DNA of 64,000 nt, taken from NCBI RefSeq assembly GCF_900177045.1, contig NZ_LT841358.1:761073-825072 (forward strand). Direction: 5' to 3'. Of this stretch, positions 3,345-36,852 are shown in pieces (the first letter of the stretch is position 1; every line of letters begins with the position of its first letter). The notes beneath the pieces were generated by a model that saw only the letters and a program-made list of their open reading frames with translations, did no database searches and was not told where the DNA came from. The position numbers were made by a program, and so were the translations under genes. This DNA comes from Candidatus Nitrosotalea okcheonensis. GTDB lineage: Archaea; Thermoproteota; Nitrososphaeria; Nitrososphaerales; Nitrosopumilaceae.

Positions 3345-4496
3345 GTGACTAAGAGACTCCTTTTAGCATCAGCCGTCTTGAGTTTATTGGTTATCGGAAT
3401 GGTTTCTCCTGTACTTGCAACAGTAGATTTTAATGCATACCTGCCAATTTCCGGAAAGCCAATCACGCCACAATTCATGTTTACAAAGAATGTTGCAATT
3501 GATTATTCAAACGGTGGAAAATTAAAAGATCTTTTAAACGGTAAGAATGTAACATATTCATACTCTGGCAACTCAAACAATAATCCAAGCATCAAAACAC
3601 TCATGGAATCATTAAACACACTGCTTGCAACACAGAGAAAGACAACTGCAACATTTTCAGACTTGCAAGTAGATTATCAAGTTCAGGTAAACGGTGATAG
3701 TCAAGGTGCTACCATCGATTACAAGATAGTGTTAACTCCAACACTAACAGGATACATGCTATACAAGAGCAATGGAGACACACCTACAGTATTTGACGTA
3801 TCATGGATGGGATTCAGTATGACAGGCCCAGCAGTCATATCAGCTGGAAGCCTAGGAAACGTGGATATCAATTCACCAATAGGAATAATCAAGAGTCAAT
3901 TACCAGATGTTTATAATGTATTGAAAGGAACTGCTGCAGAAGCTCCCCTGAGCGTAAACTTGCTTGATGCAAGCGCCCTAGTAGGATTTCCAATCGAAAA
4001 GTGGAATGCCCTTTTTGACCCAGCATATACCCTCAGTGATGCAGTAGGCTTGGGATACAAGGGACAAAAGGTAGCAGTTACCTCATTTGCATATGGACAA
4101 AGCGATCTGTACCAGGGATCATTGAAGACAGTCAATACAAACGTAGATTTTACAACAGATGCCAAGTATCACTTGTCAATGGTTGAAAGAGCAGGCTCTG
4201 GTACACTTGACGTAGACGGTCATGCAAACGGATTAGAAGTCCAGGGAGATCCGGCAATTTCAACAACAGTTGGTGCATCAGCAAACGTAGGCACCACAAC
4301 AGCTCAGGGTCTATCAACTATGACAATTTATGCGATGGCAGGATTTGCAGCAGTTATTGCAGTAGGAATTTTCATATGGAGTAACAAAAAGGTGAAAGAT
4401 GCAGCAAAGAGAGGAGTAGACACAAGTCCACCACCAACATACCAGTACGAAGAGAGAAAGCACTGGGCAGACAAGTTTGATGAAGAAAAGAAGTAA
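3345..4496 (+). CDS. Secreted, C-terminally membrane-anchored protein of unknown function
   Basis: 383 residues with a Sec signal peptide (LLLASAVLSLLVIGMVSPVLA, about residues 5-25), a long extracytoplasmic domain rich in beta-prone and Thr/Ser/Asn residues, and one C-terminal transmembrane helix (about residues 327-345) followed by a charged cytoplasmic tail ending in DEEKK. The GTG start at 3345 is chosen because it directly precedes the signal peptide; a TATA-like GATTTATTA lies about 30 bp upstream, so the leader would be very short. No enzyme motif is recognised. The topology suggests an envelope or S-layer-associated protein exposed to the outside. Confidence 0.8.
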   Translation: MTKRLLLASAVLSLLVIGMVSPVLATVDFNAYLPISGKPITPQFMFTKNVAIDYSNGGKLKDLLNGKNVTYSYSGNSNNNPSIKTLMESLNTLLATQRKTTATFSDLQVDYQVQVNGDSQGATIDYKIVLTPTLTGYMLYKSNGDTPTVFDVSWMGFSMTGPAVISAGSLGNVDINSPIGIIKSQLPDVYNVLKGTAAEAPLSVNLLDASALVGFPIEKWNALFDPAYTLSDAVGLGYKGQKVAVTSFAYGQSDLYQGSLKTVNTNVDFTTDAKYHLSMVERAGSGTLDVDGHANGLEVQGDPAISTTVGASANVGTTTAQGLSTMTIYAMAGFAAVIAVGIFIWSNKKVKDAAKRGVDTSPPPTYQYEERKHWADKFDEEKK

Positions 4497-4535: not shown

Positions 4536-4812
4536 GCGTGCCAGCCGTAACCCTCCTTCTGTTTTCACGATATTTCGCTATGCGGCCTACCTAAACAAAG
4601 TGCAGCGCTTATTGTTTGATTTGGCCTTTCTCCGCGTGGGACAGATATTTCATTCCTGCACTGGAAACCTCAGGCTTTACCATCATAGTACGCCAGGTGG
4701 GATTTTTTTCTGTGCTGTTGCCAATCATCTCTGATTATCCGTCTCCGGATCACACTTGCTGCATGGAGGGAGGAGTTTCCTCTGCCGTGGCAGTGATCGT
4801 TCACTGGCTCGC
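4536..4812 (-). ncRNA. rnpB: RNase P RNA, archaeal type
   Basis: A ~480-bp gap between two plus-strand genes contains a G+C-richer stretch with the universal RNase P landmarks on the minus strand. CR-I, GAGGAAACTCC, is at 4782-4772. CR-IV-like ACAGAAA is at 4713-4707. CR-V-like ACAGAAGGAGGGTTACG is at 4562-4546, and its GGAGGG can pair with CCTCCC just after CR-I, as in helix P4. The ends pair as P1: GCGAGCCAG at the 5' end (4812-4804) with CTGGCACGC at the 3' end (4544-4536), with one internal mismatch. An eight-T run follows the 3' end and should terminate transcription. Length ~277 nt is normal. RNase P removes 5' leaders from pre-tRNA. The exact 5' end is an estimate. Confidence 0.85.
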
Positions 4813-30848: not shown

Positions 30849-30886
30849 TTATATAAGTAGTAAATCTACTTAGGTAGTGAATCTAC
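30849..30886 (+). promoter_or_regulatory. TATA box and tandem GTAGNNNATCTAC operators
   Basis: TATA box TTATATAAG (30849-30857) overlaps the first element GTAGTAAATCTAC (30857-30869); the second, GTAGTGAATCTAC (30874-30886), is 17 bp on and directly abuts the TTG start codon at 30887. Transcription from this TATA would begin near 30880, giving a leaderless or nearly leaderless message. Confidence 0.8.
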
Positions 30887-31648
30887 TTGGTTACCGACAA
30901 GGATATAGTAAACAAGGATATAGTAAACAAGGAAAAAGGAAATAATCAAAATGCTGACAACATTATCTCATCCCCTACTAGCAACAAGAATCTTGTACAA
31001 ATACTCGTAGAGAAAGAAAATATCGAAATCTACAATCCTGACCTTGGTGCAAATGACCATAAAATTCTCTTGCTGCTAAATGATAACAGCGAATTAAATC
31101 ATTATTACACATTCAAAGGCATAATGAGAAAAATAAATCTTCACCAACAGAGTCTTTCAAGATCTTTGCAGAGACTAGAGTCATTAGAATTAATTGAAAA
31201 GACAATGATGGGTTACAAAATAACGAAAGAGTGTAAAACACAATTATCAAAAAGACGTGAAGCAAACTTTTCTAGTATCCCAATTAAAATTCCAATTGAA
31301 AGTGCTGGTTTTACACAATTAATTCAAACACATGTCCCATGTGATCTTATGACACATGACATAGTTGCTGCTTTGACAGGAAAATGGTTTGATACTCTTC
31401 GATGGCTTGGGCTTGTAGAAGGTGATAATGAATATCTTTTACAATGGATAAGTACAGATCACAAAGTTCTAGTAAATCTTCGCATATTATCTAGATACAT
31501 AATTATTGAAACTAATGCAACAAATGAAAAAGACAGGATGGAATCCATGATCTCTTCCTATAAGATACTTGATTATGCTACAAAACTTGCAAAGAACAAA
31601 ATCAATAGATGTAGTTCTACACAATACGAGCTTGATATATTTGATTAA
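30887..31648 (+). CDS. Winged-helix transcriptional regulator with C-terminal domain
   Basis: 253 residues. Residues ~1-45 are polar and include a tandem repeat, KDIVNKDIVNK, from a 15-bp duplication. A MarR-like winged helix covers about 57-110: HKILLLLNDNSELNHYYTFKGIM, then NLHQQSLSRSLQRLESLELIEK. The C-terminal ~130 residues form an uncharacterised domain including DIVAALTGKWFDTLRWLGLVEG. The TTG start at 30887 is the only reasonable one and sits flush against the second operator, so this gene is likely subject to tight control by the operator-binding protein, perhaps itself. Confidence 0.78.
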   Translation: MVTDKDIVNKDIVNKEKGNNQNADNIISSPTSNKNLVQILVEKENIEIYNPDLGANDHKILLLLNDNSELNHYYTFKGIMRKINLHQQSLSRSLQRLESLELIEKTMMGYKITKECKTQLSKRREANFSSIPIKIPIESAGFTQLIQTHVPCDLMTHDIVAALTGKWFDTLRWLGLVEGDNEYLLQWISTDHKVLVNLRILSRYIIIETNATNEKDRMESMISSYKILDYATKLAKNKINRCSSTQYELDIFD

Positions 31649-31663
31649 AATAATCGGAAAATT

Positions 31664-32014
31664 ATGAAACCCATAACAATAGGAGCAATTGGTGGAGGAG
31701 CTGCAGTAGCAATTGCCATCATAATCATGTTTGTGTTTCAAAGCGTACCTATTACTCAATATTCTTTGTATGTTGATGCTCGCACTGAATCAGGCGATGG
31801 TTTGTCCGAATCCCATGTAACGATCATCAATACTGGTTCAGCACCATTGACAAACCTCAAAATGGCATATGATACTGGTGCCCCATATAAGATACCGCTA
31901 CTAAATCCAAAGGACAAGATGGTTCTTTCTCCTCCCCCTTCTGCAAAAACAGTAACAATAACTACAGATCAAGGTTATACTGTAACAAAATCATTTGAAC
32001 AAATTTCGGAATAG
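31664..32014 (+). CDS. Membrane-anchored small Ig-like protein, paralogue of 35013
   Basis: 116 residues. An N-terminal helix, GAIGGGAAVAIAIIIMFVF (about residues 7-25), precedes a compact beta domain with HVTIINTGSAPLTNLKMAYDTG (near 51-72) and the ending VLSPPPSAKTVTITTDQGYT. The gene at 35013 encodes a paralogue with the same glycine-rich anchor, an INTG/KNTG phrase and the PP-SA-TVT stretch. It is 15 bp behind the winged-helix gene and 9 bp before the propeller gene, so the three form one operon. Confidence 0.72.
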   Translation: MKPITIGAIGGGAAVAIAIIIMFVFQSVPITQYSLYVDARTESGDGLSESHVTIINTGSAPLTNLKMAYDTGAPYKIPLLNPKDKMVLSPPPSAKTVTITTDQGYTVTKSFEQISE

Positions 32015-34005: not shown

Positions 34006-34656
34006 TTAGTCCCACTTAGACCAAGCTGCCATCCACCTGTAAGTCCATGTTGTGAGTTTAGTTCCTAATGCAGTCATTGTTACTGTCAAAACTGCACTAA
34101 CACCCGCACCTAGCGCAACGGGACTATCATAGAACTTTCCTACTTGGGGTTCTATTGGTGTCATGTATGGAGGCAATGTGGTTCTGGGGTATTTGAAAGC
34201 CATCTCAAGAGGATCATCTATTGTGATTAGATTGATCATGTTGAACAACGCCATTGACATGCCACAAAGCACACCACCGATTAGGATCAAAGAGTGTTTG
34301 TTTCTCTTTGTTGCCCAAAATGCCAAATCCATCAATATTGCAGATGGAATCCATATTGGTACAGTGATGAAGCTGTATGGATATCCTAAGGAAAACCACG
34401 CACCTTTTGCAACCCATGTATACGTTGTCATTATTAGCGCATAGTATGTTGCGGTTCCTGGCACGCCAGTGAACGTAAGGTAATATGCTGCACCGACTGC
34501 GAGCATCAATGATTGTGATAGTGTAAATATCACATAAGATGTCCATGCCCAATCAGTGTAGAATATGTAGTCTCCTGAGTTGATTGTCAACAAGGTTGAG
34601 TTGACTGCTACCACTACTATGAATAAGTAGTGAGTGCATCTTCTTAACCAGACCAT
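34006..34656 (-). CDS. amoA: Ammonia monooxygenase subunit A
   Basis: 216 residues, exactly the archaeal AmoA length. AmoA is a membrane subunit of the copper ammonia monooxygenase that oxidises ammonia to hydroxylamine, the first step of ammonia-based growth. Hallmark stretches are MVWLRRCTHYLFIVVVAVNS (1-20), GDYIFYTDWAWTSYVIF (near 28-44), YYLTFTGVPGTATYYALIM (near 59-77), FKYPRTTLPPYMTPIEPQVG (near 153-172) and the invariant ending TWTYRWMAAWSKWD. No amoX, amoC or amoB gene adjoins it: downstream is a gap of ~190 bp, upstream a divergent promoter. TATA-like CATATTTAAG near 34712-34703 (minus strand) precedes GTAGNNNATCTAC-type elements, suggesting that amoA is under their control. Confidence 0.99.
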   Translation of the reverse strand: MVWLRRCTHYLFIVVVAVNSTLLTINSGDYIFYTDWAWTSYVIFTLSQSLMLAVGAAYYLTFTGVPGTATYYALIMTTYTWVAKGAWFSLGYPYSFITVPIWIPSAILMDLAFWATKRNKHSLILIGGVLCGMSMALFNMINLITIDDPLEMAFKYPRTTLPPYMTPIEPQVGKFYDSPVALGAGVSAVLTVTMTALGTKLTTWTYRWMAAWSKWD

Positions 34657-34667
34657 TTGATAACATA

Positions 34668-34724
34668 GTAGAATATCTACTTATTTAGGTTTTCTACATA
34701 ATCTTAAATATGTAGCATATCTAC
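34668..34724. promoter_or_regulatory. GTAGNNNATCTAC operators at the amoA promoter
   Basis: Perfect elements GTAGAATATCTAC (34668-34680) and GTAGCATATCTAC (34712-34724) with a degenerate copy TTAGGTTTTCTAC (34685-34697) 17 bp from the first. A TATA-like sequence CTTAAATATG (34703-34712), usable on both strands, lies between the second and third. For amoA two elements are downstream of TATA; for the divergent structured RNA one is. Confidence 0.78.
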
Positions 34725-34735
34725 ATATATGCAAT

Positions 34736-34826
34736 CTGCGGAGTTGACTGCCCCTAAAAGGCAGCGTCTTAGCCAGACAAACTCCGTAGATAATTTAATT
34801 TATAAAAAATCCATTTTACTTTTTTT
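34736..34826 (+). ncRNA. Candidate structured small RNA, three-way junction, divergent to amoA
   Basis: 34736-34789 folds as a three-way junction: outer stem CTGCGGAGTT (34736-34745) with AACTCCGTAG (34780-34789), one G-T pair; hairpin CTGCC-loop-GGCAG (34748-34764); hairpin GTCT-TAGCC-AGAC (34766-34778). A TATA-like CTTAAATATG centred near 34708 would start plus-strand transcription at about 34735, precisely at the stem. A run TTTTACTTTTTTTAC (34812-34826) follows and could terminate it. It is G+C-richer than its surroundings. It is not a tRNA (only two internal hairpins, ~55 nt). Identity unknown; the fold is also possible on the other strand. Confidence 0.55.
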
Positions 34827-35012
34827 ACACATCTTCTTTAAGATCAATTGCTCATAAATTAATAAATTCTTGTAAAAAGAGCATTAGTAAATTGTGACCA
34901 CATATATGATTTGGCGGTCAATATAATTATGAATTATGAAGATATTGCATGAAAAAATGCAGGCCAAAATCACAGAGAATGCAATTTCAAATAATTCACG
35001 GTGTGCCTTTTA

Positions 35013-35357
35013 ATGGTAAAGGCTATGGTATTTGCAGCAATAGGTGGTGGCGTCGCAGTAGCTGTAGTTTTAACATTATTTTTCTTCAATTTAGGTGCAA
35101 CTCAATACCAGATGTCAGTTGAAGTCCAAACAGGGACGTCAATGGGCAACATGGGCTATACTGATCTAAAAATTAAAAATACTGGAACCTCAGAGTTGAC
35201 CAATATCAAAGCAGATTATGGCCAAACTTCTGAAAAAATAGCATCTCTTGAACCTGGTCAATGGGTAGATGTCGCTCCGCCCGCTTCGGCAACAATGGTG
35301 ACAGTAACATGCGATCAAAATGTAACTGTAATAAAAGCGATATCATCTATGGGTTAA
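35013..35357 (+). CDS. Membrane-anchored small Ig-like protein, paralogue of 31664
   Basis: 114 residues from ATG 35013 (a GTG at 35001 would add four). Anchor helix AAIGGGVAVAVVLTLFFF (about 6-23), then a beta domain with TDLKIKNTGTSELTNIKADYG (near 49-69) and VAPPASATMVTVTCDQNVTV. It matches the 31664 protein in anchor, middle and end. The two genes flank amoA at 2-3 kb distance, hinting at a common process in the outer face of the membrane, but nothing direct shows it. Confidence 0.7.
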   Translation: MVKAMVFAAIGGGVAVAVVLTLFFFNLGATQYQMSVEVQTGTSMGNMGYTDLKIKNTGTSELTNIKADYGQTSEKIASLEPGQWVDVAPPASATMVTVTCDQNVTVIKAISSMG

Positions 35358-36807: not shown

Positions 36808-36852
36808 GTGTTACATCTATCATGTAGTACATCTACTATGTAGAGACACTAC
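36808..36852. promoter_or_regulatory. Three tandem GTAG-type operators between two membrane-peptide genes
   Basis: Elements start at 36808 (degenerate, GTGTTACATCTAT), 36824 (perfect, GTAGTACATCTAC) and 36840 (one change, GTAGAGACACTAC), each 16 bp apart. A symmetrical TATA region CGTATATAAG (36852-36861) adjoins the last element and can serve either direction. Confidence 0.75.

Follow-up and report, generated by a model that had tools for sequence, protein, structure and literature searches.

A structured RNA element divergent from the second amoA gene of Candidatus Nitrosotalea okcheonensis, a candidate antisense regulator of the canonical amoA

A compact structured RNA element lies divergent from the second amoA gene of Ca. 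N. okcheonensis, within the window analysed here (the whole 64,000-nucleotide stretch of genomic DNA), and two of its segments are complementary to the beginning of the canonical amoA gene. Archaeal ammonia oxidation has amoA as its central gene and universal marker, and the regulation of this gene is barely known. The explanation that we favour, and hold to be rather probable, is that the element is an antisense RNA that acts in trans and originated from an amoA 5' end, would be co-induced with the second gene copy (amoA-B) and would mask the start codon of the near-leaderless mRNA of the canonical copy (amoA-A).

The genome of 1.97 Mb (G000 in our set) contains two amoA genes 401 kb apart, the proteins of which are 96% identical.

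34006..34656, minus strand: amoA-B, second copy of the ammonia monooxygenase subunit A gene (Pfam PF12942, E 3.8e-104)
G000:C1:1196937-1197581, minus strand: canonical amoA-A, candidate target of the RNA

For Ca. N. okcheonensis CS, Herbold et al. (2017; PMC5767755) describe a canonical amoA (NCS_11555) that is located in the amoAxCB cluster and transcribed, and a further copy (NCS_11033) that is more than 400 kb away, 95.5% identical and not transcribed in standard culture. The amoA-B of the window, which lies outside the amoAxCB cluster, is almost certainly NCS_11033. The sequence-only reading had taken the adjacent amoA for the main copy; it is actually the second one, and the RNA is complementary to the canonical gene. 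The body of amoA-B (34006-34656) clusters with the amoA-A of the same genome, and its first 24 nt match those of the G419 amoA-B exactly, which may point to a gene conversion in G000 that spared the amoA-B 5' end.

The RNA element and its predicted promoter are composed of the following parts.

34733..34792, plus strand: structured antisense RNA, three-way junction, 60 nt (from MFE z, covariance model and double-sided changes; 5' end predicted at ~34733)
34734..34745 (5' arm) and 34780..34791 (3' arm), plus strand: closing stem P1, 12 bp, with compensatory U-A to C-G and C-G to U-A changes
34748..34764, plus strand: hairpin P2, variable in sequence and length with pairing retained; 7/9 pairs with double-sided changes
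34766..34778, plus strand: hairpin P3 (GUCU-UAGCC-AGAC), inner pairs constant, 11/13 columns invariant
34704..34711, plus strand: TATA box of the RNA promoter, TTAAATAT, 29 nt upstream of the RNA

The three-way junction is both the minimum free energy and the centroid structure (-23.6 kcal/mol, z = -3.7), and 1/200 shuffled sequences folded equally well. Hairpins P2 and P3 have 5 bp (34748-34752/34760-34764) and 4 bp (34766-34769/34775-34778), respectively. This bears out the fold proposed from the sequence alone, a junction of 10-bp, 5-bp and 4-bp stems, the 10 bp being the inner part of the 12-bp stem; the element is real, and the start given for it (34736) moves to 34733-34734. The TATA-like element that had been placed at the right distance is indeed 29 nt upstream, and a TATA box (TTAAATA or TTAAATG) precedes the RNA at 27-29 nt in all nine genomes with homologues. 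These features suggest a small RNA gene that would be transcribed from its own predicted promoter. The T-rich tract described downstream is present (34819-34826) but is not conserved among the homologues, and is therefore poor evidence for a terminator. Searches of Rfam 15 at gathering and relaxed thresholds matched the element to no family (the best local matches, with E of about 1 or more, were chance) and ARAGORN found no tRNA there, in agreement with the earlier statement that it is not a tRNA, 5S, SRP or RNase P RNA. The only Rfam family in the window is an archaeal RNase P RNA gene (RF00373, 179 bits, 4536-4812, minus strand).

On inspection of amoA upstream regions, the same element was first met beside three further amoA genes (L028, L069 and L033), and a covariance model was built from these and the window sequence. 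The unfitted alignment of four sequences contains five pairs changed on both sides, compared with 1.9 in shuffles, 5/500 of which were as high. In the alignment of nine sequences, which was fitted to the covariance model and thereby favours structure, 92.8% of cells are paired and nine pairs are changed on both sides, against a shuffled mean of 3.3 (0/500 shuffles as high), so that the orthologues do hold the compensatory changes that the sequence-only reading had expected of a genuine structure; sliding this alignment by one column abolishes the signal. Stems P1 and P2 covary and P3 is nearly invariant, with 11/13 invariant columns in P3 and its loop versus 1/26 in the P2 region over the nine genomes.

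With the covariance model, the RNA was found in 9/37 genomes of the genus, while searches of 250 genomes of the family and 400 of the order returned no other convincing RNA. In each of the nine genomes, about 80 nt separate the element and the start of an amoA-B. Among the 32 genus genomes with a recovered amoA, nine carry the RNA, compared with 0/23 of the remaining ones; Fisher's test of the linkage between RNA and amoA-B gives p ~4e-8 on the assumption of independent genomes, which relatives are not. No genome with a single amoA carries the RNA, so that loss of the RNA offers no comparison of its effect, which counts against the favoured explanation. It is divergent from amoA-B in 8/9 genomes and inverted in G406. 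Apart from amoA-B and the RNA, the gene neighbourhoods of the nine loci are largely different, and the two thus behave as a cassette. The suggestion of a leader element finds no support: no conserved gene lies downstream, the RNA retains its own promoter, and its orientation is reversed in one genome. A riboswitch or leader was likewise rejected as a class, since the homologues share no downstream gene.

The RNA is single-copy in G000, and a second, decayed copy was found only in G406 (L114 1501-1569; L151 about 3944-4012), where no amoA-B adjoins it. This copy lies near a Rieske-like gene, and a Rieske-like gene neighbours amoA-B in G407 and G299; L114 is likely the relic of a lost amoA-B cassette. 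A miniature mobile element (MITE/REP) was rejected because such elements need several copies per genome. Weak model matches in G506, G416, G417, G209 and G180 fall on the antisense strand of ordinary amoA starts and add no RNA genes; they show the likeness of the model to antisense amoA. One match in G370, in sequence that looks coding, is chance. An exact pattern scanned against viral contigs matched once, in a GC-rich context with other flanking sequence, and this too was taken as chance.

The complementarity to amoA resides in two segments of the RNA.

34765..34778, plus strand: antisense segment 2, 14 nt, complementary to amoA-A nt 4-17 (codons 2-6)
34741..34751, plus strand: antisense segment 1, 11 nt, complementary to amoA nt 49-59

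The reverse complement of the RNA contains GTCTGGCTAAGACG (amoA nt 4-17), followed, in the order of the gene, by GCAGTCAACTC (nt 49-59). The P3 sequence GTCTTAGCCAGAC followed by NA (searched as GTCTTAGCCAGACNA) has just two sites in the 1.97 Mb, one in the RNA and the other where the canonical amoA begins. Against a background of 440 gene starts, taken from 20 stretches of 20 kb and the window, amoA-A ranks first on three measures: duplex energy (-50.2, against a mean of -22.9 with sd 6.0), cofold gain (-11.1, against a mean of -0.1 with sd 0.7) and length of the longest complement (14 nt). On the latter two amoA-B ranks second, and on duplex energy third. For the comparison among genomes, the amoA-A 5' end was taken from the same genome in four cases (G000, G424, G425 and G299) and from the invariant genus sequence in the other five (four MAGs with no recovered canonical amoA start, and G406, the copy of which is missing its first 12 codons); on this basis the complement to amoA-A is 13-15 nt long in 7/9 genomes and has one mismatch in the remaining two. 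The 12-nt core has no mismatch to amoA-A in seven genomes and one in two, versus one to three mismatches to the neighbouring amoA-B in each of the nine; of the two predicted pairings, the one with amoA-A is the stronger in every genome. The changes of amoA-B within the pairing site are silent, except for one Leu-to-Ile replacement in G299. In that genome the target has GTAAACTC in place of GTCAACTC, and the RNA has GAGTTTAC for GAGTTGAC (GUUUAC / GTAAAC); the target change occurs in amoA-A and amoA-B alike, which indicates that the RNA tracks amoA and not copy A alone. The element thus resembles trans-encoded antisense sRNAs in that its target is elsewhere, 401 kb away, with 14 + 11 complementary nt near the start, and in that the pairing is conserved, with 0-1 core mismatches in 9/9 genomes (genus consensus in five). 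A cis-antisense RNA of the adjacent gene was rejected, the RNA (34733-34792) having no overlap with amoA-B (34006-34656).

The promoters of the RNA and of amoA-B carry the same kind of operator, which recurs in front of a gene for a putative regulator.

34712..34724, plus strand: operator of the RNA promoter, GTAGCATATCTAC (TCATGAC-type in other genomes)
34668..34680, minus strand: operator of the amoA-B promoter, GTAGAATATCTAC, same dyad, directly 3' of the amoA-B TATA box
34681..34688, minus strand: TATA box of amoA-B, CTAAATAA, predicted leader of only a few nt
30857-30869 and 30874-30886, plus strand: two further operators, GTAGTAAATCTAC and GTAGTGAATCTAC, between a TATA box and the start of the MarR-like gene
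30887..31648, plus strand: MarR-like winged-helix protein (PF12802, weak, E 8.5e-5, below the curated cut-off)

The promoter region and operators had been described as common to the RNA and amoA, and this holds, with GTAGAATATCTAC and GTAGCATATCTAC each directly 3' of a TATA box. In the nine genomes the amoA-B promoters have the TATA box TTTAAATAA or a similar one, and the same box type lies directly 3' of both TATA boxes, TCATGAC-like in eight genomes and GTAGNATATCTAC in G000, the box of which differs from that of the other genomes at the RNA and amoA-B promoters together. The pattern GTAGNANATCTAC occurs six times in this genome (reversed-pattern control: four times), and four of the six sites are within 6 kb around amoA-B. 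The dyad GTAGN5CTAC stands beside TATA boxes at 30857-30886, 34668-34680, 34712-34724 and 36824-36836, the last of which precedes a predicted small membrane ORF (about 27 aa) near 36.8 kb. Judged from their arrangement, the dyad sites may form a local regulon, with the MarR-like protein (30887-31648) as the candidate regulator. Two small proteins flank amoA-B (31664-32014, 116 aa; 35001-35357, 118 aa); they look alike by eye and belong to no Pfam family. Given the same operator at the two divergent promoters, production of the RNA would be confined to conditions under which amoA-B is made as well. The description of the element as an abundant regulatory RNA tied to ammonia oxidation agrees with these data insofar as it is an unclassified structured RNA, co-regulated with amoA and plausibly a regulator; "abundant" is not supported, given that the neighbouring amoA copy is reported as silent in standard culture (PMC5767755).

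In the mechanism that we propose, release of the operator would lead to amoA-B and the RNA being made together from their divergent promoters. The RNA would then pair in trans, through its two collinear segments, with the canonical amoA-A mRNA, its 3' segment covering amoA-A nt 2-17, beside or over the start codon, and its 5' segment nt 49-59, while the intervening 31 nt of the mRNA and hairpin P2 would loop out. Segment 1 overlaps the closing stem, so this pairing would have to open the stem. The amoA-A leader is predicted from TATA spacing to be only a few nt long, and the start codon would therefore be masked and initiation on amoA-A hindered, such that the AmoA-A subunit would be swapped for AmoA-B under some inducing condition. 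The silent changes in the 5' codons of amoA-B would make its pairing with the RNA weaker, so that amoA-B could at least partly escape. The silence of NCS_11033 and expression of NCS_11555 in batch culture, as reported in PMC5767755, fit a mutually exclusive use of the two genes, with the system off under those conditions.

The sign of the effect is not given by complementarity alone, and the RNA might instead pair with amoA-A mRNA to protect or activate it, for example as a shield against a 5'-3' exonuclease, or balance both copies. Discrimination against amoA-B in G000 is narrow, consisting of a single G-U wobble plus a single mismatch, and with segment 1 complementary to both copies, amoA-B may be bound too; its place as second of 440 by cofold gain and longest complement is in keeping with such a role. 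We nevertheless regard protection or balancing as unlikely, since the paired region adjoins or includes the start codon of an mRNA with a predicted few-nt leader, which is the usual geometry of repression, and since amoA-B has its one to three changes inside the core pairing site in all nine genomes.

Complementarity could also be a matter of descent. The complement of the RNA can be aligned to amoA nt 1-62 apart from a replaced middle part, in which the element of G410 is apparently closer to amoA; the RNA probably arose by duplication of an amoA 5' end, placed upstream of amoA-B, that came to be read in antisense. With descent this likely, a structured RNA of other function, binding a protein or acting as a sponge, might have kept the complementarity as history, and P3 could be a protein site. 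This appears improbable to us, as it is the amoA-complementary parts that are invariant and the rest that covaries or drifts, and as segment 1 of G299 follows its target. An antisense role towards amoA would account for the invariance of P3.

Two further readings are at variance with the conservation of the element. Its position between the promoters and its near-perfect 12-bp inverted repeat would suit a DNA-level repeat or operator rather than an RNA; this we consider highly improbable in view of the TATA box kept at 27-29 nt in nine genomes, including the inverted case of G406, the covariation of P2 with free sequence and length, and the location of the element outside both predicted core promoters. 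Least credible is a decaying, non-functional duplicate of the amoA 5' end, for which the decayed G406 copy (L114) with no adjoining amoA-B could speak, because the copies beside amoA-B are undecayed in their covariation, constant promoter spacing and linkage across different loci.

What is new in the proposed antisense RNA is its target, its descent from that target gene and its coupling to a paralogue through a common operator. We know of no eukaryotic pseudogene antisense transcript with a divergent intact paralogue under the same operator or with a conserved compact fold. In other respects such transcripts are similar, being antisense, derived from a duplicated gene piece and able in principle to regulate the parent gene (PMC2753554). 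The transposon-derived antisense RNA of Sulfolobus solfataricus (Martens et al., as cited in PMC5867862) is also archaeal, trans-acting and of mobile or duplicated-sequence origin, but as described there it pairs with a 3' UTR and is not linked to a paralogue of its target. The sRNA162 of Methanosarcina mazei, which masks a ribosome binding site (PMC3510493), is an archaeal sRNA that likewise uses separate segments for pairing in trans (RF02792; PMC3510493), whereas the two segments of the present RNA are complementary to a single coding region, at the start of a near-leaderless mRNA, and the RNA is derived from the target gene; it has no homology with sRNA162, scoring 15.9 bits against a gathering score of 78. 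A review of archaeal sRNAs makes no mention of Thaumarchaeota (PMC5867862), the RNA element is not mentioned in the available part of PMC5767755, which reports NCS_11033 and its batch-culture silence, and no amoA antisense or small RNA was found in the literature on ammonia-oxidizing archaea, most subscription papers being outside the search.

We give about even chances to the wider proposal of a two-gene isoenzyme-switch cassette of ammonia-oxidizing archaea, in which an alternative amoA and a same-operator antisense RNA, itself built from part of amoA and silencing the resident amoA, would be mobile as a unit, with silent mutations conferring immunity on the alternative copy. If the proposed antisense role is true, it would represent post-transcriptional control of archaeal ammonia oxidation, of which we found no description in the literature, and would account for the presence in Ca. 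N. okcheonensis of a spare amoA that stays silent under standard culture. The proposed role would also bear on the use of amoA transcripts as a proxy for activity.
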